NCBI GenBank assembly: GCA_944323255.1
Contig: CALURU010000011.1
Location: 1 to 64,000 of the forward strand
DNA from: Candidatus Gastranaerophilales bacterium
Lineage (GTDB): Bacteria > Cyanobacteriota > Vampirovibrionia > Gastranaerophilales > Gastranaerophilaceae
Length of the DNA: 64,000 nucleotides
Direction: 5' to 3'
A program made the translations under genes and the position numbers. The notes below the pieces were generated by a model, which ran no database searches, had not been told where the DNA came from, and saw only the letters and a list, made by a program, of their open reading frames with translations. Below are positions 45,716 through 55,978 of the stretch, in pieces (positions within the stretch are counted from its first letter, which is position 1; each line of letters opens with the position of its first letter).

Positions 45716-47620
45716 ATGCAGATAAATCCTATAAATAGCAGAGTTAGTGTTAATACAAAAGGTTTACAATATACACCGGGTGTTAAGCCGGAAAACGGCG
45801 AAGAAGATAAGTCCAGAAATTTGATAAAGGAGCTTGATAAGATGAGTATGATGAATAATATAAATATCGGTAAGAAAGATTACGAAATGAATCTTTCTAT
45901 GGAAGAGCTTGAAAAGAGAACTCATAAAGATTATTTAACGACAAAGAAAATGTTAGCAGCTGACGCCACGGAATATCTTGAACTTGCAGACGGTGACAAA
46001 GAAGCATTGAAACACCTTGTTAAAGCAGCGGCAGTTCTGGATAAAGTTAATATGCAGCTTGATAATCCTAACAATTTGCCTTTCAAAGAATATCTTGAAT
46101 CAGAAATCACAAAAGGGAATAAAAAAGCAGAATTAACAAAAATTCTTTTTGATGCACAAAAAGGTGTCTGCTCTCTTGATAGAGAAAGCAACATGATTGA
46201 ACTTGCAAAAGGTGTGTCGGAAAGACCCGGGAAGGGAGTTTACCCGCAGGATTTGGAGAAAGAAGAATTTCATCAGATTTTGATTAATATGCTTAAAAGC
46301 GGCAAAGTTGACGATGTCGCAAAAATTCTTAATCAGCGCTCTGTTGTTGAAAGAGTCGGTAACGAACTTGTTGCGACTGATTATGTTGACAAATTTAAAG
46401 ACGACTTTGCTTATATGGCGTCAGAACTTGAAAAGGCAGCAGAAACTTCTACAAATGCTGATTTTAACGAGTTTTTAAAACTTCAGGCAAAAGCATTAAG
46501 AACGGCAGATCCTATGCTTGATGCTTATGCTGACAAAAAATGGGCAACGCTTCAGGATACACCTCTCGAGTTTACAATAACAAGAGAAAATTATTCCGAC
46601 GAATTAACTGAAACTGTTGTTGAGAATCCGGAGCTTAAAAAACTTCTTGACGAAAACGGTATTGTACCGACTGCTAAAGATTTTCTCGGCGGCAGGGTTG
46701 GAATTGTTAACAAAAAAGGTACGGAAGCAATTTTGAATGTGAAAAAATTCCTTCCTCTTATGGCACAAAATATGCCATTTAAGGATGATTATATTCAAAA
46801 TATTACCCCTGACTGCAAGGATTCCAAACAAACAATGGTTGATGCGGATCTGGTTGCAGTAACAGGAGATGTCGGAGAATTCAGAGCGGGAATTACACTT
46901 GCTGAAAATCTTCCTAACGATGACAAACTTTCCATAAAAGAGCTTGACGGCGGAAGAAGAAATGTTTATCACAGACAAATCCGCTTAATAACCTCGGAAG
47001 ACGCCAGAGAAAAAATGAGAAAAAGACTTAATGCGACCCTAAATCCGGATTTGCATAAATACTATAATGATGAAGCAGACCACTGGTTCACTGTAGGACA
47101 CGAAAACGGACATTCACTCGGCCCAAAATCAGGAACTGAAGGGCTTGGAAAATATAAATCAATTATTGAAGAAAACAAAGCTGACATGGTTTCTCTTGCG
47201 ATGCTCGATATTCTGACAGAAGCCGGCATGTACACTCCAGAGCAGAGAAAACAAATTATTGTAACTTACGCCGCAGATAATATGATGACTTCAAAGCCTA
47301 CTTTAAGTCAGGCGCACAGAGTCCGCTCCGTTATGCAGAATTACTATTTTATAAAAGAAGGTGCAATGGAAATTTCGCCCGATGGAATATTAAATGTAAA
47401 TATAGACAAAATGATTCCGACTGCAAGAAAGATGCTTGAAGAAATTATTCAGGTTCAAATGAAGGGCGATTTTTCAAGAGGCGAAAAATACGTTATGGAT
47501 AATTTTGTCTGGACGCCTGAAATGCAAACTATGGCAGATAACATTAAGAAAGTTTCCAAAACTCTTAACGGCAGGGTAGAATCACCGCTTGCAGATAAAC
47601 TTCTTGCCGAAGGGGGGTAA
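45716..47620 (+). CDS. Putative zinc metallopeptidase, DPP III-like (M49-related)
   Basis: A 634-aa protein with a probable zinc site: VGHENGHSLGP (H462, E463, H466) followed 20 residues later by IIEENKADMVSL, which offers the third (Glu) ligand. This pair, HExxH-x-LGP and EExKAD, resembles bacterial dipeptidyl-peptidase III-like enzymes. Human-type M49 has HExxxH, so it would be a divergent subgroup. The first 20 residues (MQINPINSRVSVNTKG) are like the leaders on other orphans here. There is no signal peptide. The ribosome-binding site is AAAAAGAGGTTCT. Substrate unknown, probably small peptides. Confidence 0.75.
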   Translation: MQINPINSRVSVNTKGLQYTPGVKPENGEEDKSRNLIKELDKMSMMNNINIGKKDYEMNLSMEELEKRTHKDYLTTKKMLAADATEYLELADGDKEALKHLVKAAAVLDKVNMQLDNPNNLPFKEYLESEITKGNKKAELTKILFDAQKGVCSLDRESNMIELAKGVSERPGKGVYPQDLEKEEFHQILINMLKSGKVDDVAKILNQRSVVERVGNELVATDYVDKFKDDFAYMASELEKAAETSTNADFNEFLKLQAKALRTADPMLDAYADKKWATLQDTPLEFTITRENYSDELTETVVENPELKKLLDENGIVPTAKDFLGGRVGIVNKKGTEAILNVKKFLPLMAQNMPFKDDYIQNITPDCKDSKQTMVDADLVAVTGDVGEFRAGITLAENLPNDDKLSIKELDGGRRNVYHRQIRLITSEDAREKMRKRLNATLNPDLHKYYNDEADHWFTVGHENGHSLGPKSGTEGLGKYKSIIEENKADMVSLAMLDILTEAGMYTPEQRKQIIVTYAADNMMTSKPTLSQAHRVRSVMQNYYFIKEGAMEISPDGILNVNIDKMIPTARKMLEEIIQVQMKGDFSRGEKYVMDNFVWTPEMQTMADNIKKVSKTLNGRVESPLADKLLAEGG

Positions 47621-47629
47621 ATATATTAT

Positions 47630-47760
47630 TGGTAAAGTGTGAAAGGTGAAGAGTGAAGGGAGGTTTAGCGACTAAGAAGGTGTACAACTACAACTCTGGC
47701 ATCATTAAGGGGTAAATGCCTTTCTGAACTCAATATCAATTCGAAGGTGAAGAATCACTA
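47630..47760. repeat. Purine-rich dispersed repeat remnants
   Basis: GTGAAAGGTGAAGAGTGAAGGG, AGCGACTAAGAAGG and TTTCTGAACTC...GAAGGTGAAGAATC are decayed members of the families at 1336-1400, 10380-10440 and 18680-18760. No gene is seen between 47621 and 47874. Confidence 0.55.
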
Positions 47761-47796
47761 TAATTTTAATATTTTTGTAAACTTTTGTAACACAAT

Positions 47797-47834
47797 AAAA
47801 CTCCTGATGGCAATTTTACGCAGTCAGGAGTTTT
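47797..47834 (+). terminator. Intrinsic terminator after the metallopeptidase gene
   Basis: AAAACTCCTGA (47797-47807) pairs with TCAGGAGTTTT (47824-47834) around a 16-nt loop, with Ts at the end. It lies about 180 bp past the stop codon. Confidence 0.7.
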
Positions 47835-47874
47835 ACTTATAACATAAATAGTGTAGAAGAAGTGAAATTGTATT

Positions 47875-48666
47875 ATGAATATTTCAGAAACTAAAACCTC
47901 GTATTTGAATTATCAAAAACCAACATCTTTTAAGGCAAACGGAACTGCGGGAGGACAAACCGGAGGCAGCGGAGTATTATTACCTGGAGCTATAGCTGTT
48001 GCATCTGCGGCTGTTGCAGGTGTTGCTCTTTATAAGAACCGTAAAACAGGTAAAGCTCTGGAAGAGGCTTTAACCAAGTTAAAAAATACGGAGAATGAGC
48101 TTAAACAAAACAAAGATAAGATTGAAGAAACAACAAGAAAACTTGAAGAGATGAGTTCTAAACAAACTTCTAAGGTTGATGATGAAACTGCGGAAAAAGG
48201 AACTGCCGTAAAGGAATGGCTTAAACGCCAGGGTAAAAAAGGCGGAAAATGTTTGTATAAATTTGGTCGTTTTCTAAATAAAAAATTTAATTCAATGAAA
48301 ACTGCGGGAAAATCAAGCAGTAAAGTTAAAAAGAATAAAACCAGAGCACAGGATAATGTCCAAATAGGAATTAACGACAATTGGCTTCGGGAACAAATGG
48401 AGATCAGACAGAAATCTGGCGAGGAGTTAGCAAAAACTCTTGAGGATTTAAACCAGCTCAAGACTTTGTATAAACAATATCGGGAAACTGCAAAGAAGTT
48501 GGAAAAAATTAACAATCGTACACAAAAAATAAAATCCAAAAATGACATAACAAAGTCTGATGCTGAAGAAAAAATTAAGAATTTAACAAAGCGTATTGAA
48601 GAATTGACAAACGAACTTAATGCTAAATTTCAAGGAAGAAGCGGCAATTCCGGTAGCGCCGCTTAA
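47875..48666 (+). CDS. Membrane-associated coiled-coil orphan with F-K-A leader
   Basis: A 263-aa protein starting with the leader MNISETKTSYLNYQKPTSFKANG. A Gly-rich stretch is followed by one Ala/Val-rich membrane helix (about 33-50), then long Lys/Glu coiled coils (about 57-95 and 180-255) separated by a basic region (about 105-150). The layout suggests a single-pass membrane protein with a cytoplasmic coiled-coil stalk. No enzymatic motif. Function unknown. Confidence 0.7.
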   Translation: MNISETKTSYLNYQKPTSFKANGTAGGQTGGSGVLLPGAIAVASAAVAGVALYKNRKTGKALEEALTKLKNTENELKQNKDKIEETTRKLEEMSSKQTSKVDDETAEKGTAVKEWLKRQGKKGGKCLYKFGRFLNKKFNSMKTAGKSSSKVKKNKTRAQDNVQIGINDNWLREQMEIRQKSGEELAKTLEDLNQLKTLYKQYRETAKKLEKINNRTQKIKSKNDITKSDAEEKIKNLTKRIEELTNELNAKFQGRSGNSGSAA

Positions 48667-48684
48667 ATCAGGCAGATTTAATAA

Positions 48685-49479
48685 TTAAGAGCTTTTAATA
48701 TAAGTTAATTCATTCAGTTTTTGATAGATTACTGCATTAAAAACAAACAAAATGTCTGAATCTAAGACCGGAAAGTCCAGATTAAAACCGATATTATAAA
48801 TATGTGTTCCTGCGAATATGATTTTAGAGTTTATGTATCCGATAAATCCGGCCTGCTCTTTGAGGAGCATGTTCTCAAGTTTTTTATTATATGCTCTAAT
48901 AGTATCTGGCGGAATTTCTTTAAGAGGAATACTTACAAGAGTTTTGCCGTCAAAAAGTGAGGTTAGTATATAATTTTTGCCCTGTATATATTTTTCTAAA
49001 AAAACTGTTTCAATAATTTCCGGTGAATAATTATTTATTTCCTGCCGTATACTGACAAGTTCCGGAATTGAATTTGCAACCCTTGTAAATCCGTCGGTTT
49101 TTACTATGAGTGGAAAACTTTTCGGGTAAGAATATTTTTCCGGAACATTAATTTGGTATTTTTGACACATATCTCTTGCAAACTTGTTTGAAAGTACAAG
49201 ATTTGTCCAGAAGGCAGTAAGTCCGATACAGTTAACGAAGTTTTTTCTCAAAACGTCGACTATTCCTTGCAGAATCATTTTTTCATCTTCTACAAAAACT
49301 ATATCAATTTTCAGCACTTTGCATTTTAGCGCCAGTTCACGAAACGTGTTGAATCTTATATCGGTAGCATTTTCTGTTTCAAAATTTGCAAACAATCTTC
49401 CCAGATACTTAGATTCAATTATACTGCTCAAAGCTTTCGAGCTCTTATCGCCGATAATCAGTACATTTAATTCAGGCAT
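48685..49479 (-). CDS. Degenerate PurD-like (phosphoribosylamine-glycine ligase-like) protein
   Basis: A 264-aa protein whose layout follows the PurD N-terminal and ATP-grasp domains: LNVLIIGDKSSKALSSII where PurD has the GsGgREHA motif, IDIVFVEDEKMILQGIVDVLRK (PurD: DLvvvGPE.PL..GivD), TAFWTNLVLSNKFARDMCQKY and FPLIVKTDGFTRV (PurD: P.VvKaDGL..GKG). The GREHA, GPE and GKG catalytic motifs are lost and the protein is about 150 residues shorter than PurD. The start at 49479 has GCGGAGCAAACC and lies within the end of the upstream ATPase gene (8-bp overlap). Probably a repurposed pseudo-enzyme. Confidence 0.7.
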   Translation of the reverse strand: MPELNVLIIGDKSSKALSSIIESKYLGRLFANFETENATDIRFNTFRELALKCKVLKIDIVFVEDEKMILQGIVDVLRKNFVNCIGLTAFWTNLVLSNKFARDMCQKYQINVPEKYSYPKSFPLIVKTDGFTRVANSIPELVSIRQEINNYSPEIIETVFLEKYIQGKNYILTSLFDGKTLVSIPLKEIPPDTIRAYNKKLENMLLKEQAGFIGYINSKIIFAGTHIYNIGFNLDFPVLDSDILFVFNAVIYQKLNELTYIKSS

Positions 49480-50170
49480 GGTTTGCTCCGCAAGGTTCCG
49501 GCATGAGACCTTCGCATAGGACAAAACGTCCCAAAAGTACTACTTCGCAGTAATTTCGCAGCGAATCAACAAGACATTTATTTTCGCAAAAACCGCCGGA
49601 AAGATAAATTTTGTCAGGTTTTTTGCAAAAATTCCATGCGTTGTATGCAATTCCGTGTACAAACTTTGATATTGCAACCGCAGGTGTTATCCCTGACGAA
49701 ATCGAGTCCATAATTTTTTCCATGCCAAAAATTCCGCACGTAACCGCAAACTTTTCTTTTTCAAAGCTTAATTCTTCTGCCTGTGTGTTATAGAACTTCA
49801 AAAGCATTTCAACCGTTGCACCCGTTGAACTTGCACAGGAGGTATTCCAGTCCATATCATGAAACTTACCGCCCCGAAACTTTATCCATTTTGCATCACG
49901 GCTGCCCAAATCCAGCACTGTTGCATGCTCATCTTGTAGTATATTCTCGTTTCTTCTGGCTCCCTGTGCAAGTGCTATAATCTCGTTTTCGCTTGCAAGC
50001 GCCATGTGCCCGCACGAGCGGTCAGCTGCGATGCTGCGGGCTTTTACCAGAGATGACGGCAGTATATAATAATATTTTTGACCGTGTACCCCCATCAGGT
50101 ATGACTTTTCCAGAAGTTCCCCGTCAGCTATTATTTTAGAATAAGTTGTTCCGGCGTCCAAATAAATCAT
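49472..50170 (-). CDS. BadF/BadG/HgdC-type ASKHA ATPase
   Basis: A 232-aa protein of the sugar kinase/Hsp70/actin fold. It has the phosphate-1 loop YLDAGTTYSKII, phosphate-2-like TVLDLGSRDAKWI (about 84-96) and the family Cys motif WNTSCASSTGATVEMLL (about 108-124). The adenosine motif is KIYLSGGFCENKCLVDSL. Relatives hold a [4Fe-4S] cluster between two subunits and activate 2-hydroxyacyl-CoA dehydratases or reductases. No dehydratase gene is here. The gene overlaps the PurD-like gene by 8 bp, so the pair is co-translated. Confidence 0.83.
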   Translation of the reverse strand: MIYLDAGTTYSKIIADGELLEKSYLMGVHGQKYYYILPSSLVKARSIAADRSCGHMALASENEIIALAQGARRNENILQDEHATVLDLGSRDAKWIKFRGGKFHDMDWNTSCASSTGATVEMLLKFYNTQAEELSFEKEKFAVTCGIFGMEKIMDSISSGITPAVAISKFVHGIAYNAWNFCKKPDKIYLSGGFCENKCLVDSLRNYCEVVLLGRFVLCEGLMPEPCGANHA

Positions 50171-50214
50171 ACTAAAAGTTTATGGTAGGAGCAACAATAA
50201 GTCAACCTTATTAT

Positions 50215-50439
50215 CTATTCTGTAATTCCTTCGTCCGGATCGGTTCCGTCCACGAGTATTGAAAAATTACAAAATACGCTGTCGCTTAAACTGCATAATT
50301 GCTTTGTAAGAGGCAAAAGATCATTAATCTCTTCGCAATGATTGTTCTGTAAGCAATACTGGTGAAGTATCTTTGCTATTTTATAAATATCTTCTGCTTT
50401 TGTCGATAATTCCTGTTTTAATTCATTTTTAGTTGACAT
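50215..50439 (-). CDS. Small helical orphan protein
   Basis: A 74-aa cytoplasmic protein, helical and charged, with four Cys (YCLQNNHCEE, LCSLSDSVFC) and an acidic tail (DGTDPDEGITE). AATAGGGAGAAATT is a good ribosome-binding site. It lies 44 bp upstream of the ATPase gene in the same direction and may belong to the same transcript. It is not recognised; the heptad-like Ile/Leu pattern suggests a small helical bundle of the MazG or chaperone-accessory kind, without evidence for either. Confidence 0.55.
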   Translation of the reverse strand: MSTKNELKQELSTKAEDIYKIAKILHQYCLQNNHCEEINDLLPLTKQLCSLSDSVFCNFSILVDGTDPDEGITE

Positions 50440-50567
50440 AATTTCTCCCTATTTTTTACTATCAAAATATAGCACATATGTACAATATAATTATAATGGA
50501 ATTTGCAGATAATACATAGTAATTTTTTTTTAATAGTAAAAATAATTTAATTGTATTATTATTTATA

Positions 50568-51245
50568 ATGATGGAACGTTTAGAAAAGTATTACAATCAA
50601 ATAAAAAATTCCCCGATATTTTACGGCATGAATGACGAGGAACTAAGAGGGCTGCTGGATTGTTTCAATGCCCGTGTGCGCAAATATGAAAAAGAGGAGA
50701 TGATAATACGCCAAGGTGATATGATTTCTAATATTTATCTTATTCTTGACGGCGAGGTTAATATTGAAAAAGATTCTTATTGGGGGAGAAGAATAATTAT
50801 CTCAAGGCTCGGCAGAAACGATAACCTTGCGCTTTCTTTTGTCGGCTCTAAAGACGTTGAATCAAGTATTGATGCCATTGCTATTAAAGATACGCTTGTA
50901 CTGATTCTCGGTTATGAAAAATGTACTTCAATGTGCCAGAATGCTTGTACTAGACACAAGGTTTTGATTAACAATTTATTCCAAATTCTTTCTAAGGAAA
51001 ATATCGAATTGATACAAAAAATTGAAAATGTTTCTCAAAAGACTATCAGGGATAAACTTTTAACATATCTTTCCAACGAAGCGCAAAAAAGGCATTCCAA
51101 CAGTTTTGATATTCACTTCAATCGTCAGGATCTGGCGGATTATTTAAACGTTGACAGATCGGCAATGAGTTTTGAACTCTCGAAGCTCCAGAAGGAAGGG
51201 ATTATTGAGTATAATAAAAACCATTTTGAACTGTTGTCTAAATGA
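50568..51245 (+). CDS. Crp/Fnr-family transcriptional regulator
   Basis: A 225-aa regulator with an N-terminal cyclic-nucleotide-binding-type barrel (about 20-120), a long dimer helix (about 125-150) and a C-terminal winged helix (about 155-220). Helix-turn-helix residues are visible in RQDLADYLNVDRSAMSFELSKL. The phosphate-binding FGE..A...R(S/T)A motif of CRP is absent (GRNDNLALSF), so cAMP binding is unlikely. A CTSMCQNAC cluster near residue 125 could serve redox or gas sensing. No ribosome-binding site precedes the ATG ATG start; the first codon is used here. Confidence 0.87.
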   Translation: MMERLEKYYNQIKNSPIFYGMNDEELRGLLDCFNARVRKYEKEEMIIRQGDMISNIYLILDGEVNIEKDSYWGRRIIISRLGRNDNLALSFVGSKDVESSIDAIAIKDTLVLILGYEKCTSMCQNACTRHKVLINNLFQILSKENIELIQKIENVSQKTIRDKLLTYLSNEAQKRHSNSFDIHFNRQDLADYLNVDRSAMSFELSKLQKEGIIEYNKNHFELLSK

Positions 51246-51283
51246 TTGTGGAATAAAAAGTTTTTAGGAGATAAACTGATATT

Positions 51284-51543
51284 ATGAAAAAGATTTTGCT
51301 CGGGATATTTTGTTTTTTGTGTATAAATTCGGCTTATGCGCATTTGTAAAAGAAAATCCAAGGAAGAATACTTGTATTTCTGCCCTTTCTTACAATTATG
51401 GCAAAATCGGCACATTGTCGGCAGATGGTAATATTTTACTGAATCAGGATATGACAGAAAAATTGTCTTATTTTATCCTCTTGAGTGAAGATAAGAAGTT
51501 GAAATTAATCACATCTCCATCAACTGTTGTCAAAAATACCTGA
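51284..51543 (+). pseudogene. Broken gene for a secreted protein
   Basis: From 51284 an ATG with a distant AGGAG opens a textbook signal peptide (MKKILLGIFCFLC, ending SAYA) but a stop codon follows at 51347 after only 21 residues. In another frame the sequence continues without a stop to 51543 (KENPRKNTC, ALSYNYGKIGTLSADGN, LSEDKKLKLI). This is consistent with a frameshifted secreted protein of about 80 residues whose end overlaps the convergent AsmA-like gene. A genuine 21-aa peptide is the alternative. Confidence 0.4.
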
Positions 51544-54248
51544 CAGTCTTTGTCCTCGGCATCAATATCCGGAAGCTGTGAAAGTTCTGCTGCATAATAG
51601 TTGCTGTCATTTCTTCCGCTGTTAGAAATTCTGTTTGCCAAACTGTTCAGTGATATATTCCTCAAGAAACCGGCAAACCCCTCACCCTTATTAGACATTT
51701 TTGTGTAAATCCTAAGAGTTGCATCATTTGTCATCAAATCGTATCTTCCGACAATGAATGAGCTAAGCTGTGAAGCTCTTGATTTTATCATCATTTTCTC
51801 TATAACATTATCCTTGAGACTTAAATCGCCCTGAATAATATCGAAACTTCCGTCAGGAATGTTAACCAGATCACCAAATGTTGCTGGTGTTATCATAGCT
51901 AATGGGTTTCTAAAGAGTGAAGCGACTTTCAGAATATATTCAACATATCCGACTTTTTCAATTGTACCGTTTTTAATATCAAATTTAATAATACCGTTAA
52001 GTTTTAAAGATTCATCAGAATTAATTTCAATCAAACCTCTTGCTTTGCCGGAAATTTCTCTCGGCAAGCCCAAAACTGCTGCGGCCATAACATCAGAGTT
52101 AACATCTTTGATTCCCAATCTCAAATAGTATTGTTTTTTAATTAAATCAGCTTTAACTTTAAGTGTGGAAATACCTTCTGCAATATCAAATTTGTTGGAC
52201 TGAAGCTGTAATACGCCGTCCTTATCAAGCGTTAAATTAGCATAAAGGTTTCCAAAATTAACCTCTTTATATTTGCCCTTTTGAAGATTTAAGATACATT
52301 TTTCAACAATTACAAGCCCCTTTGAAAAAGTTGGAGTTTCGTCATTTTCTGCTGTTTGATCATCCTCTGTATAAGTTTTTTCATCTGCCACAAGAACTTC
52401 TTCCGCAGTCTGTTGAGTTGATTGTGCTGAATTTGCAGAAGCTAAAAGTTTTTCTACATCAATATTATCAACATTAAGATGAACACTCTTGACTATAATT
52501 GGGAGCTTTAATTCATTTACGATATAACCGTCAAAATGATATTTTGAACGTTTAAACCTTCCGTCTGCAATTGCTCCGAGTTTGTCACCTTTTGCACCGA
52601 TTTTTGCGGATTCAATATAGAGCCTTTGAGCCGGAATACGAACTTTACTAAACTCAATTACACCGTCCATTTTCGGAAATTCTCCGTGATTGTCAATGCT
52701 TAAATCACCGGAAATAGTTCCTTTTCTAAATATTTTCTGACAGGCAAGGAAGTTCAAAAATTCACTTGGAAGCGGACGAGGAATCTTTAAATTCAAATCA
52801 AGAAGCTTCATATTATCAGCCATGTCAATGTCGCCTTTGATTGCAAGAACCGGCGTCATATCCTTTTGAAGCTTGTCAGTTATATAGTAATCAATTGTGT
52901 TAATTTTTAAGATATTTTTAACAACACTTAAATCAACTTTAAAGAGTGTTTTGTATTTTTCAAGCACCATTGACTGCTCGCCAAGCTTAAACCCTTCGCC
53001 TTCGTTAAGCAGGAAGTACCATACGACATCACAAGAACCGTTTTTAGAAGTCAGTGTAAGCTGCGAACCGGCATCACCTACGAGCGAGATTGGTGCTCCG
53101 AGCAATTTTGATACATAATTTTTAAAGAAGTCATCATTAACAAAAATGTTAGAAACGATTGTCGTATCGCAGGTTTTCCAGTAATCTTTAACATCACCGG
53201 ACATTGTAAAATTATTTATTTCTTTATTGTTATAATACCCTTTAAAATCTTTGAGAGTAATTGTAGTATTTCCGATATCAATAAGCCCCTGCGTAACTTT
53301 TACAGGAAGATTTTCAAGATACAAAACTTTGAAATCCGTTTCATTTACATCAACATTCCCCCTGATACTGTCCTTGGTAAGATGCAGGTTAAAATCCACA
53401 CTTCCGTTAACTTCACCAATAGGCGCAAAAAGTTCTTTTCCGTTTGGAATAATTATATTGGATGTAAGGATATTAAAGATATCTCTTGCTTTAAAGTTGG
53501 TTGAAGAGATATTCATTTCCGCTCCGGTTTTTCTGGAAGCAAAAGCGTCAATTATTATTTTTGATTTATCAATAATAATCGGGAAACTATCAACGTGGAG
53601 CTCCCCATTCCCCATATAGATTCGGTTCTGGTCGTCTGCTGCGACAATAATTTTATCGCTGCCTTTTTGCATTTCAAATACAAAATCAAAATGCAGATAT
53701 TTTTTAGCCTTGGTTCTGTCAAGCAGCATACGCTCTGCATCAAATTTTATACCGATATCCGGGGTATTGTAAGTTACAAGACATTTTTTTACTCCGAGAA
53801 CTGCAGAAAAAATATCTAAATTAAATTCAGATGGTTTCTGCTCTTTTTTCTGTTCGGTTTTAGGAAGTAAAGCCAGCAAGTTTGCAGTATCTACATAGAT
53901 ATTATCCGCAAGAACTTTTTTTACTATAAGGCGTTTTTTAAAAATATCACTGAAAGAAAATTCTGTATCCAAATTCGTTAAATTCAAAAGTTCCTGACTA
54001 TCTTTAACAATTGCAAATTTATCAATAGAAAAGGCAATATCAGGATTTAAGCCTGTTTTTAATTCAGGTTTATTAATAACAACTTCTGCACCAAGAATTT
54101 TCTTCGCTTCTTTGGTAATTTTATCATTAACCCATTTGCTTGAAACAGCTGCAGGCAAAAGCCATAAATAAGAGGCTGCTGCAGCACCTGCAAGGATTAC
54201 TGCAGAACAAACCGCTGCGGTTAATATTTTCTTCGCTTTACTCTTCAT
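51468..54248 (-). CDS. AsmA-like inner-membrane protein
   Basis: This 926-aa protein has one N-terminal membrane helix (about 10-30) and a very long periplasmic beta-rich region. An AsmA-type N-terminal segment (VSSKWVNDKITKEAKKILGAEVVINKPELKT) and an AsmA/TamB-related C-terminal region (about 740-890; NGIIKFDIKNGTIEKVGYVEYIL, FDIIQGDLSLKDNVIEKM, GRYDLMTNDATLRI) are visible. Such proteins form lipid-transfer bridges between inner and outer membranes. A low-complexity acidic linker (about 615-640) divides it. The ATG at 54248 has no ribosome-binding site but sits right after an extended -10 element. Confidence 0.82.
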   Translation of the reverse strand: MKSKAKKILTAAVCSAVILAGAAAASYLWLLPAAVSSKWVNDKITKEAKKILGAEVVINKPELKTGLNPDIAFSIDKFAIVKDSQELLNLTNLDTEFSFSDIFKKRLIVKKVLADNIYVDTANLLALLPKTEQKKEQKPSEFNLDIFSAVLGVKKCLVTYNTPDIGIKFDAERMLLDRTKAKKYLHFDFVFEMQKGSDKIIVAADDQNRIYMGNGELHVDSFPIIIDKSKIIIDAFASRKTGAEMNISSTNFKARDIFNILTSNIIIPNGKELFAPIGEVNGSVDFNLHLTKDSIRGNVDVNETDFKVLYLENLPVKVTQGLIDIGNTTITLKDFKGYYNNKEINNFTMSGDVKDYWKTCDTTIVSNIFVNDDFFKNYVSKLLGAPISLVGDAGSQLTLTSKNGSCDVVWYFLLNEGEGFKLGEQSMVLEKYKTLFKVDLSVVKNILKINTIDYYITDKLQKDMTPVLAIKGDIDMADNMKLLDLNLKIPRPLPSEFLNFLACQKIFRKGTISGDLSIDNHGEFPKMDGVIEFSKVRIPAQRLYIESAKIGAKGDKLGAIADGRFKRSKYHFDGYIVNELKLPIIVKSVHLNVDNIDVEKLLASANSAQSTQQTAEEVLVADEKTYTEDDQTAENDETPTFSKGLVIVEKCILNLQKGKYKEVNFGNLYANLTLDKDGVLQLQSNKFDIAEGISTLKVKADLIKKQYYLRLGIKDVNSDVMAAAVLGLPREISGKARGLIEINSDESLKLNGIIKFDIKNGTIEKVGYVEYILKVASLFRNPLAMITPATFGDLVNIPDGSFDIIQGDLSLKDNVIEKMMIKSRASQLSSFIVGRYDLMTNDATLRIYTKMSNKGEGFAGFLRNISLNSLANRISNSGRNDSNYYAAELSQLPDIDAEDKDCQVFLTTVDGDVINFNFLSSLKRIK

Positions 54249-54255
54249 ACTCAAG

Positions 54256-54261
54256 ATTATA
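54256..54261 (-). promoter_or_regulatory. Extended -10 element, apparently leaderless start
   Basis: On the minus strand TGCTATAAT ends 7 bp before the ATG of the AsmA-like gene. Initiation seven bases after the -10 would fall one base upstream of the start codon, giving an essentially leaderless mRNA. Confidence 0.5.
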
Positions 54262-54343
54262 GCACAAAGATTCTTTTTAAAGTTAATAGGTAGAAGTTTT
54301 TATATTGTTCTATGACAAAATCTATCATTCAGAGTCTAAAAAC

Positions 54344-55978
54344 TTATACAGGCAGTCTTGAAGAACTCAAATTTTGTTCGGAATCTTTTAAGATTTCTTG
54401 ATATAAACTAATTCCGCCACATAAAGAATAAACATTATTAAAGCCTTGTTGTAAAAGTATTCTGGATGCTACATAACTGGTATATCCTGTGTTACAAAAC
54501 AAAATAACTTTTTGATCTTTCGGAAATTCATTTAATCTGTTCCTTATCTGATTAACAGGAATATTTATAGCACCTTTGATTGTATTTGTTTTATATGCTG
54601 TTTCGGGACGAACATCAATCAACAAATCATTTTCAACATCTTCCGGATATGCAGGTTTTATCAATCCTCTCAAAATATTATCCGCATTCATACCAAGAAT
54701 ATTGACAGCATCTTTTGCGGAAGAATACGGCGGAGCATAGCATAGCTCACAGTCTAGCAGATCTTGAACAATACCGTTACTACGCATTATAGAAGATATA
54801 ACATCAATTCTCTTTTCTACACCGTCCTTTCCAGCAGCCTGTGCTCCCAGAATTTTGCCTTCCGGTGAGAAAAGCAGCTTATAATAAACAGTCTGTGCAT
54901 TCGGATAATATCCTGCATGATTTTTAGAAAAAATAAAAGTTTTTCTGTATTCTATTTTGTTTGCCTTTAATTGTTTTTCATTATTTCCAACACTTGCCAG
55001 TGTATAATTAAAAACTTTTATTACAGAAGCACCTTGCGTATTTTTATAAACAGACTTTATACCGCATATATTATCAGCAATAATTCGCCCCTGCCTATTT
55101 GCCGGACCGGCTAAAGGTATTATGGTATTTTTTCCGCTAACAAAGTCTTTTATTTCAACGCTATCACCGCCTGCATATATATCAGGGTTAAAGGTCTGCA
55201 AGTTTTGATTAACAATAATCCCCATGCCCGTTTCCAGTCCTGCTTTTCGGGCAAGTTCAATTTCCGGTCTTACTCCAATTGACATTATGACAATATCGCA
55301 GTCAACTGTTCTTCCTGAATTTAAAATAATTTTGCCATTATCAAATTCTTTTACTCCGTCACTTAGAATTAAATTTACACCGCATTTTCGCATCTCATTT
55401 TGTGCAAAAGCAGTTGTTTCTGTATCAAAAGACGGCAAAATTTGAGCTTGTGCTTCTATAAGCGTAGTACTCAAGCCAAGCTTTAATAAATTCTCCGCCA
55501 TTTCTATACCTATAAATCCACCGCCGATTATTACAGCTTTTTTTACATGATTTTGCAGAATATAAGATTTTATATTATCTGCATCTAAAAGAGTTCTTAA
55601 AGTAAAAATTTTAACCTTATCTATACCGTAAATATCAGGAACAATCGGTTTTGCACCGGTTGCCAGTACAAGCTTGTCATAAGAAATTTTATCGCCATTA
55701 TAAAGCTCCACATATTTTTTTGAAGGATTAACGGAAATAACCTCTGAATTTAATCGAACATCTATATTAAACCAGTTTTTAAACTTTTCCGGAGACGAAA
55801 CAATCATATCTTTACGATCACTTATGACATTTGAAGTGTAATAAGGAAGTCCGCAATTCGCAATAGAAATTTCGCTAGTCCTTTCCAATATAATAATTTC
55901 AGCAGCTTCATCCAGCCTTCTTAATCTAGCAGCAGCACTTGCTCCACATGCACCCCCGCCTATTATAACAACTTTCAT
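54344..55978 (-). CDS. CoA-disulfide reductase fused to rhodanese
   Basis: The 544-aa protein is a flavin disulfide reductase of the CoADR/NADH-oxidase group. It starts VVIIGGGACGASAAARLRR (FAD site), has the redox Cys42 in IANCGLPYY, VIIGGGFIGIEMAE (NADH site), DIYAGGDSVEIKD and the dimerisation region LLDCELCYAPPYSSAKD. A C-terminal rhodanese domain (about 440-544) follows with catalytic Cys495 in FCNTGYTSY. Such fusions reduce CoA-disulfide, persulfide or polysulfide. It starts 18 bp after the gyrB stop and is probably co-transcribed with it. Confidence 0.92.
   Translation of the reverse strand: MKVVIIGGGACGASAAARLRRLDEAAEIIILERTSEISIANCGLPYYTSNVISDRKDMIVSSPEKFKNWFNIDVRLNSEVISVNPSKKYVELYNGDKISYDKLVLATGAKPIVPDIYGIDKVKIFTLRTLLDADNIKSYILQNHVKKAVIIGGGFIGIEMAENLLKLGLSTTLIEAQAQILPSFDTETTAFAQNEMRKCGVNLILSDGVKEFDNGKIILNSGRTVDCDIVIMSIGVRPEIELARKAGLETGMGIIVNQNLQTFNPDIYAGGDSVEIKDFVSGKNTIIPLAGPANRQGRIIADNICGIKSVYKNTQGASVIKVFNYTLASVGNNEKQLKANKIEYRKTFIFSKNHAGYYPNAQTVYYKLLFSPEGKILGAQAAGKDGVEKRIDVISSIMRSNGIVQDLLDCELCYAPPYSSAKDAVNILGMNADNILRGLIKPAYPEDVENDLLIDVRPETAYKTNTIKGAINIPVNQIRNRLNEFPKDQKVILFCNTGYTSYVASRILLQQGFNNVYSLCGGISLYQEILKDSEQNLSSSRLPV

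Follow-up and report, generated by a model that had tools for sequence, protein, structure and literature searches.

Structure and Relatives of the Two Gene Products

GAR synthetase (PurD; TIGR00877, PF02844, and PF01071) carries the motifs REHA, GPE, KADG..GKG, NTGGMG, and N-R-GDPE, which have catalytic or ligand-binding roles. The 264-residue protein described here, referred to below as the relic, has the fold of PurD, the same order of N-domain and ATP-grasp core, sequence kinship, and common descent with the intact PurD of its own genus, but differs in lacking the REHA, GPE, NTGGMG, and GDPE motifs, the glycine loop, and the C-domain and in the failure to find the pathway partners in the host genome. 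In 28 genomes of the genus, the gene upstream of the relic encodes an eroded form of PurN (TIGR00639), designated PurN', the model of which best matches GAR transformylase, but PurN' is only 158–169 residues long and lacks the DGG loop and part of the N-terminal half. The second protein of the locus, an ATPase, aligns with the 2-hydroxyacyl-CoA dehydratase activators (4eht and 1hux; PF01869 and TIGR00241) and with the activase 7yyl through the second phosphate motif and the CAAGTG and TC..F cysteine sites; in contrast to the dehydratase activators, it has just 232 residues, a TIGR00241 score below the cut-off, and no adjacent target gene.

Pseudoenzymes in general have likewise kept a fold and selection while their catalytic residues have gone. 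The relic differs from them in that it is the remnant of a lost pathway and not a surplus duplicate, in that it was stripped by loop deletion, and in that an intact operon persists in other species of the genus. Although pseudoenzymes are already known, one that is left from a lost purine pathway, is stripped of its loops yet under selection, and has an intact operon in congeneric species is new as far as the accessible portions of the literature extend: those on purine synthesis in Gastranaerophilales/Melainabacteria, on PurD pseudoenzymes, and on relics of pathway loss contain nothing on such a relic, and the word "purine" occurs 0 times in the accessible main text of PMC3787301 and of PMC4040986.

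Gene Arrangement at the Locus

The window is the whole 64,000-nucleotide stretch analysed, bases 1–64000 of contig 11 of a 2.23-Mb draft genome that is 98.47% complete. As originally predicted, open reading frames of 264 and 232 residues lie on its minus strand, and the list of reading frames and the junction DNA agree that they overlap by exactly 8 bp (Table 1). The AsmA-like label of the 928-residue gene product in the second synteny block was assigned by eye.

Table 1. Positions of features in the window
Feature	Position	Strand	Basis
Putative eroded PurD (GAR synthetase) pseudoenzyme, 264 aa: N-domain and trimmed ATP-grasp core, without C-domain	48685..49479	-	ORF; TIGR00877 38.8 bits; model; alignment to same-genus intact PurD
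HgdC/BadF-type ASKHA ATPase, 232 aa, short second paralog	49472..50170	-	PF01869 33.2 bits; alignment to 4eht/1hux/7yyl; C112 and C145 invariant
8-bp overlap ATGCCTGA of ATPase stop (TGA) and relic start (ATG)	49472..49479	-	Read on DNA; absent from both other ATPase-paired genomes
GGAG, Shine-Dalgarno-like, 6 nt ahead of relic ATG, within ATPase 3' end	49486..49489	-	Read from sequence
Synteny block 1: 634-aa gene (+), 263-aa gene (+), convergent relic (-)	45716..49479	.	Order matched in G108 contig 31, where the ATPase is missing
Synteny block 2: ATPase (-), 74-aa ORF (-), Crp-like gene (+), 928-aa AsmA-like gene (-), pyridine nucleotide-disulphide oxidoreductase (-)	49472..55978	.	G108 contig 7: equal set minus the 74-aa ORF, with fliF after the ATPase

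Similarity of the Relic to GAR Synthetase

Against the NCBIfam purD model (TIGR00877), the relic scores 38.8 bits (E 4.7e-10), below the curated cut-off of 288, and against Pfam GARS_N it scores 21.5 bits (cut-off 29.5); the best PurD in a profile search of the PDB with the relic has an E of 7.2e-19. An AlphaFold2 model built from a 32-row alignment has a pLDDT of 93.5 and a pTM of 0.87. When this model was compared with the PDB by Foldseek, ranks 1–14 were all GAR synthetases (top E 1.7e-17), and VIA-align gave a Z of 22.8 both with 3lp8 (rmsd 3.4, 263 aligned) and with 2qk4 (rmsd 3.1, 262 aligned), as compared with 17.4 for the top non-PurD structure, a biotin carboxylase. The kinship of the relic to PurD exceeds chance, and the PurD layout claimed for it in the original prediction is upheld by the profile, Foldseek, and VIA-align results alike; structure prediction against PurD and ATP-grasp folds, which had been proposed as a check, places PurD structures first. 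The model covers most PurD targets from their start to about residue 312–330, and the C-domain is therefore missing from what is otherwise the fold of a GAR synthetase.

Motifs Lost and Retained

The loss of the GREHA, GPE, and GKG motifs, also part of the original prediction, extends over all 32 rows of the relic alignment: no set of columns matches REHA, GPE has become V-E-x-E-K, and the glycine loop is deleted. The Glu of the metal motif is replaced by Gly in 28 of the 32 rows, and none of the 11 relics that were aligned with intact PurD has the NTGGMG segment. The window relic ends after IYQKLNE, where the C-domain is cut off. Judged by column counts over the 32 rows and by the alignments, the relic thus lacks the PurD motifs REHA, GPE, KADG..GKG, NTGGMG, and N-R-GDPE. 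Several other positions are retained, namely K127 (Lys in 25 rows and Arg in 7), E162 and D177 (32 of 32 each), and G178 (31 of 32), and therefore nucleotide binding or some residual chemistry may remain. Because the catalytic residues are missing, the relic is most likely unable to make GAR.

Descent from an Operon Still Present in the Genus

A PurD-type match is present in 64 of the 65 genomes of the genus, in 59 of them as the short form; G199 (94% complete) has no PurD-type match. An intact PurD of 396–409 residues with the sequences GSGGREHA, GPE, KADGLCGGKG, NTGGMG, and YNMRPGDPE is encoded in four genomes (G226, G227, G233, and G237), and in G236 a contig edge carries a PurD fragment that includes GGMG and GDPE. 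The gene order glgA-purM-purN-purD is visible in G226 (where glgA matches Pfam starch synthase), G233, and G237; the contig of G227 ends in purN. The purD of the intact operon scores 300.6 and 289.2 bits, above the NCBIfam cut-off, purM scores 195 bits, under its cut-off of 236.35, and purN scores 149.6, just under 150.1.

The helix IYQKL(N/D)E is common to the intact PurD and the relics, which end soon after it. When other genera serve as the outgroup, a branch (95/93) separates all the eroded forms sampled from the genus from the intact ones. The glgA gene is still upstream of the relic in G059 (with PurN' between them), in G086, and at three named loci, one of which is that of G086. Sequence and synteny are the basis for deriving the relic from the intact operon, and they indicate that it descends from the GAR synthetase encoded in the glgA-purM-purN-purD operon, which persists in some congeneric species.

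Selection on the Relic

The NG86 dN/dS of the relic is 0.156–0.242 within one three-member clade and 0.123 and 0.214 in two other pairs; these are five unsaturated pairs, three of which share rows, and the bootstrap upper 95% bounds are all below 0.41. Eleven other pairs were saturated, of which ten gave 0.06–0.12 and one no value. The corresponding values are 0.04–0.11 for intact PurD and 0.10–0.21 for PurN'. In the closest pairs, most neighbouring genes have values of 0.00–0.05, as compared with which the relic is several times higher; the convergent neighbouring open reading frames have values of 0.22–0.31 and one long frame 0.127. The ratio for the relic is low yet above that of most neighbours, and constraint is therefore present but loose.

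Of the positions that reach at least 85% conservation across the 29 rows of the main clade, 49 are ancestral, matching intact PurD, and 16 are newly fixed. The latter include two residues at the GPE site (E64 and K67) and three in the metal motif (N229, G231, and F232). No internal stop was found in any of the 59 short-form rows, with protein identities down to about 30%; in the nine rows where a stop had been flagged, it is the normal end past the Y(Q/R)KL helix, and the open frames extend for at least 260 residues. With its catalytic residues lost and its fold and purifying selection kept, the relic has the character of a putative pseudoenzyme.

Purine Pathway of the Host Genome

PurM scores of at least 209 bits were obtained in 11 of 51 genomes and in none of the nine genus genomes examined, where no PurM match exceeds 26 bits (three purM-bearing genomes of the genus are outside the 51). 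No frame of PurN size was found in the window genome, in which all PF00551 matches lie in frames of 311–329 codons, the size of Fmt. Full-length PurF is present in four of the 51 genomes, none of genus 1; the other 47 have a PurF match over only the first ~230 of 432 positions, in frames of 612–652 codons, as GlmS would give. PurF, PurM, and PurN partners were, in short, not found in the window genome, a draft of the completeness given above. Because PurM, a PurN-size frame, and full-length PurF are all missing, a GAR synthetase would be without a pathway in which to act.

A search for a true purD elsewhere in the genome had also been proposed. A second PurD-like protein does exist (L063:7653-8927, minus strand, on contig 17; 424 residues in a 430-codon frame, 212.8 bits), but it is itself motif-poor, lacking GPE, GKG, and GDPE, and was rejected as the true purD. 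The argument that the lack of a second PurD would make the relic a working divergent enzyme is not decisive: the other PurD-like protein is motif-poor, but the pathway partners are missing as well. Across the searches for PurD, PurM, PurN, and PurF, the window genome gives no apparent sign of a working GAR synthetase or pathway, and this gut bacterium seems unable to make its own purines.

The 424-residue motif-poor type also occurs at L101, L102, L103, and L105, and the five aligned proteins form one clade. Seven of the 11 purM-positive genomes (G002, G011, G015, G017, G037, G053, and G055) are without a full-length PurF match; phosphoribosylamine can be obtained from ammonia, for example, and these genomes may produce it by another way or have a PurF that the model missed. 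Two Fmt-like matches in G000 (G000:C6:517-879 and G000:C16:47374-47736) have equal scores (106.7 bits) and frame lengths, and one is near a contig start; they represent either an assembly duplicate or a recent copy.

PurN' and Erosion in Other Genera

Short-frame PurN' is encoded in 28 of the 65 genus genomes, and comparison of coordinates places it directly beside the PurD relic in all 28; full-size purN is present in four more. No PurN' apart from a relic was found in the 65 genomes, and the window genome has none. Two examples score 37.1 and 37.7 bits against TIGR00639, and the closest match of a model (pLDDT 85.3) is to GAR transformylase (E 3.3e-8). The length range and the deletions given above are those of 12 aligned rows, in which three C-terminal cysteines are invariant, in a tail with a pLDDT below 50. 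A Cys-rich C-terminal tail (C..GC..C) is found on many PurN (L134, L135, and L013) and is nearly invariant in the 12 purN' rows, from L143–L168, after loss of the catalytic loop; L133 is without the tail.

In other genera, erosion of the operon took different courses. Between an oxaloacetate decarboxylase beta gene and glgC (flanks identified by Pfam matches in G053 and by likeness in the other genomes), G053 has an intact purM-purN-purD, G035, G048, G094, and G114 have purN and a short purD, and G006, G010, and G050 have purN alone. G017 has an intact purM-purN-purD with the decarboxylase gene on one side, G027 has purN and a short purD with the decarboxylase gene and without glgC, and G022 has purN alone between birA and glgC. 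PurM is absent at the purN-purD site itself in G094 and G114. In the tree, the g35/g11 relics are separated from genus 1 and grouped (100/98) with full-length proteins from other genera, and PurD has therefore been eroded at least twice. Short PurD relics of ~250–300 residues are found in genera 1, 2, and 35/11. In G170 of genus 2 (L130:3015-4614), an eroded 174-residue PurN and a half-eroded 401-residue PurD lie beside birA, apparently a separate erosion.

The ATPase

The original identification of the 232-residue protein as an ASKHA ATPase with the CASSTGATVE motif of dehydratase activators stands: it scores 33.2 bits against Pfam BcrAD_BadFG (PF01869), above the cut-off of 31.5, and its CASSTGA sequence aligns with the CAAGTG of the solved activators. 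It is outside the TIGR00241 family as curated, with 52.3 bits against a cut-off of 125.4. C112 and C145 align with the CAAGTG and TC..F sites of 4eht and 1hux; in HgdC, the cysteines at these sites bind the cluster. Both cysteines and the phosphate motifs are invariant in 32 ATPase rows (31 distinct proteins). In a search of 191 family genomes, 97 were positive, and the orthologs in the other 96 are 52–76% identical (E 1.6e-66 or better).

Each of the 51 genomes examined encodes a PF01869 protein that is longer and scores higher than the window ATPase; in the window genome, this protein occupies a 342-codon frame and reaches 168.3 bits. All 51 also have DUF2229 matches (51 over the cut-off) and HGD-D matches (45 over the cut-off). 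The claim that the window contains no dehydratase or reductase target holds for the eight window proteins that were scanned; elsewhere, on contigs 2 and 3, the genome encodes two DUF2229 proteins (L169:6570-7646 and L170:5673-6800; 358 and 375 residues), of which the first also has an HGD-D match. Possible targets of the ATPase therefore exist, none of them adjacent to its gene. By eye, no activator-like gene was recognised beside these two DUF2229 genes, and their products might be acted on by either the long or the short activator. In related reductases, the ATP-binding dimer serves as an electron activator, according to the accessible part of one report (PMC11971306). Kinship would make the window ATPase a low-potential electron activator of the HgdC/DCCP-reductase type that works independently.

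Pairing of the ATPase and the Relic

The proposed check on conservation of the pair shows it to be rare. The ATPase adjoins the relic at three of 30 genus loci (L177–L205 and L004, the window included), those of the window, G225, and G230, within 1,500-base flanks some of which were ended by a contig edge; among 31 named loci with flanks of up to 4,000 bases, it does so at one, L139 of G230. The genes overlap in the window only, being separated by 1 nt in G225 (L178) and by 17 nt in G230. No genus-type PurD relic is present in 88 of the 97 ATPase-positive family genomes, and G147 has a relic and no ATPase. Among the other genes upstream of the relic at the 31 named loci are purN' and glgA, together with surE and a metallo-hydrolase gene, both recognised by eye. 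The original prediction had described a PurD-derived pseudoenzyme tied to an activator ATPase; the adjacency is real, but in view of this distribution and of the variable upstream genes the tie is unsupported. A conserved ATPase-relic operon was rejected on distribution and context.

The relics of the other two paired genomes, G225 and G230, are 62–65% identical to that of the window. In a 14-row tree, the three join those of L138, L140, L141, and L142, which have no ATPase, to make up a group of seven rows (86/89) whose neighbour is L143, where purN' is upstream; the three paired relics come together in 0% of 200 bootstrap trees. Because they differ to this extent and do not form one clade, the pairing is not brand-new; it has lasted some time in three lineages and counts among several local arrangements. 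Most simply, the ATPase gene would have taken the place of purN' in the ancestor of the seven-row group, and the link would have been broken again in four rows, G108 included.

Three other proposals were dropped. The pairing had appeared as a single young subclade (the window with L139, 93/80) in a tree without G225, and this was withdrawn when the addition of L178 broke the group. The separate blocks of G108 were no longer regarded as the ancestral state, since by the 14-row tree they may be a later separation. The extra C-terminal residues of the ATPase, PEPCGANHA, were considered as a remnant of the lost purN' tail, for which the junction DNA gave no support.

Interpretation of the Relic

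We regard the relic as a retained purine pseudoenzyme, an eroded GAR synthetase that is most likely non-catalytic, with the ATPase overlap as a local arrangement for which a joint function is unsupported, and we assign this reading a probability of about two in three. A non-catalytic protein is most likely because selection preserves the relic and new residues have been fixed at the former active site. The purine pathway would have been lost in the lineage of the window, to judge from the missing matches in near-complete drafts. As alignment and model show, small deletions took the phosphate, glycine, and metal-binding loops and truncation the C-domain, leaving the N-domain and ATP-grasp core in place. 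PurN', itself just as eroded, was probably the first partner of the relic, which now stands alone in many genomes, and in a small part of the genus the ATPase gene would have come to lie upstream of the relic. A shared mRNA for the two genes is plausible. The relic would probably be a regulator or scaffold that binds a nucleotide or phosphoribosyl ligand, a role favoured by the retention of the ATP-grasp core and of some residues of the nucleotide site, as against the loss of the metal site. That it acts in ligand sensing in particular is a tentative suggestion, to which we give somewhat less than even odds.

It is unlikely that the relic is instead a passively decaying pseudogene without current function, its frame kept by chance or by the cost of a misfolded product. 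Such decay would agree with the stepwise loss of the operon, with evolution of the relic much faster than that of most neighbours, with the lack of a relic in G199, and with the retention of purN without an adjacent purD in some other genera of the family (G006, G010, G022, and G050), but not with dN/dS ratios of 0.12–0.24 and their upper bounds, the uninterrupted frames of the 59 short-form rows at such low identities, the confident model, or the sixteen newly fixed positions. A functional ATP-grasp ligase that had diverged, whether it served GAR or a new substrate, might be expected to keep the fold and residues such as K127, E162, D177, and G178, as the relic does; we nevertheless consider this quite improbable, given the Gly in place of the metal-motif Glu, the loss of the glycine-rich loop and GPE, the missing NTGGMG segment and C-domain, and a host genome without PurM, PurN-size, or full-length PurF matches. 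The ATPase and relic might also form a functional unit in which, for example, the activator acts on the relic or uses it as an adaptor. The overlap in the window and the tight co-directional order in the window, G225, and G230, which has persisted among relics that are not one clade, are in keeping with such a unit, but within the flanks examined the pairing was not seen at 27 of the 30 genus loci or at 30 of the 31 named loci, each gene commonly or in one case occurs without the other (the 88 ATPase genomes and G147), the overlap is not common to the other paired genomes, and the solved relatives of the ATPase activate dehydratase-type proteins, for which the DUF2229 and HGD-D matches in all 51 genomes provide candidates. 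A functional unit is accordingly very improbable, and this tempting lead to an ATPase partnership is weakened.

Automated annotation of the 264-residue relic and of the 424-residue motif-poor paralog as "purD" could wrongly imply purine prototrophy in these gut bacteria. It is conceivable, although we hold it to be doubtful, that loss of purine synthesis in gut Gastranaerophilales repeatedly made PurD, and in the genus of the window PurN too, into loop-stripped binding proteins; if true, purine auxotrophs would recurrently have recruited enzymes of a dead pathway to sense purines or phosphoribosyl compounds, and a single genus would contain both intact and stripped forms. That genus offers a series from an intact biosynthetic operon to relics that retain only the fold, in which the question of what survives under selection after the death of a pathway can be asked.
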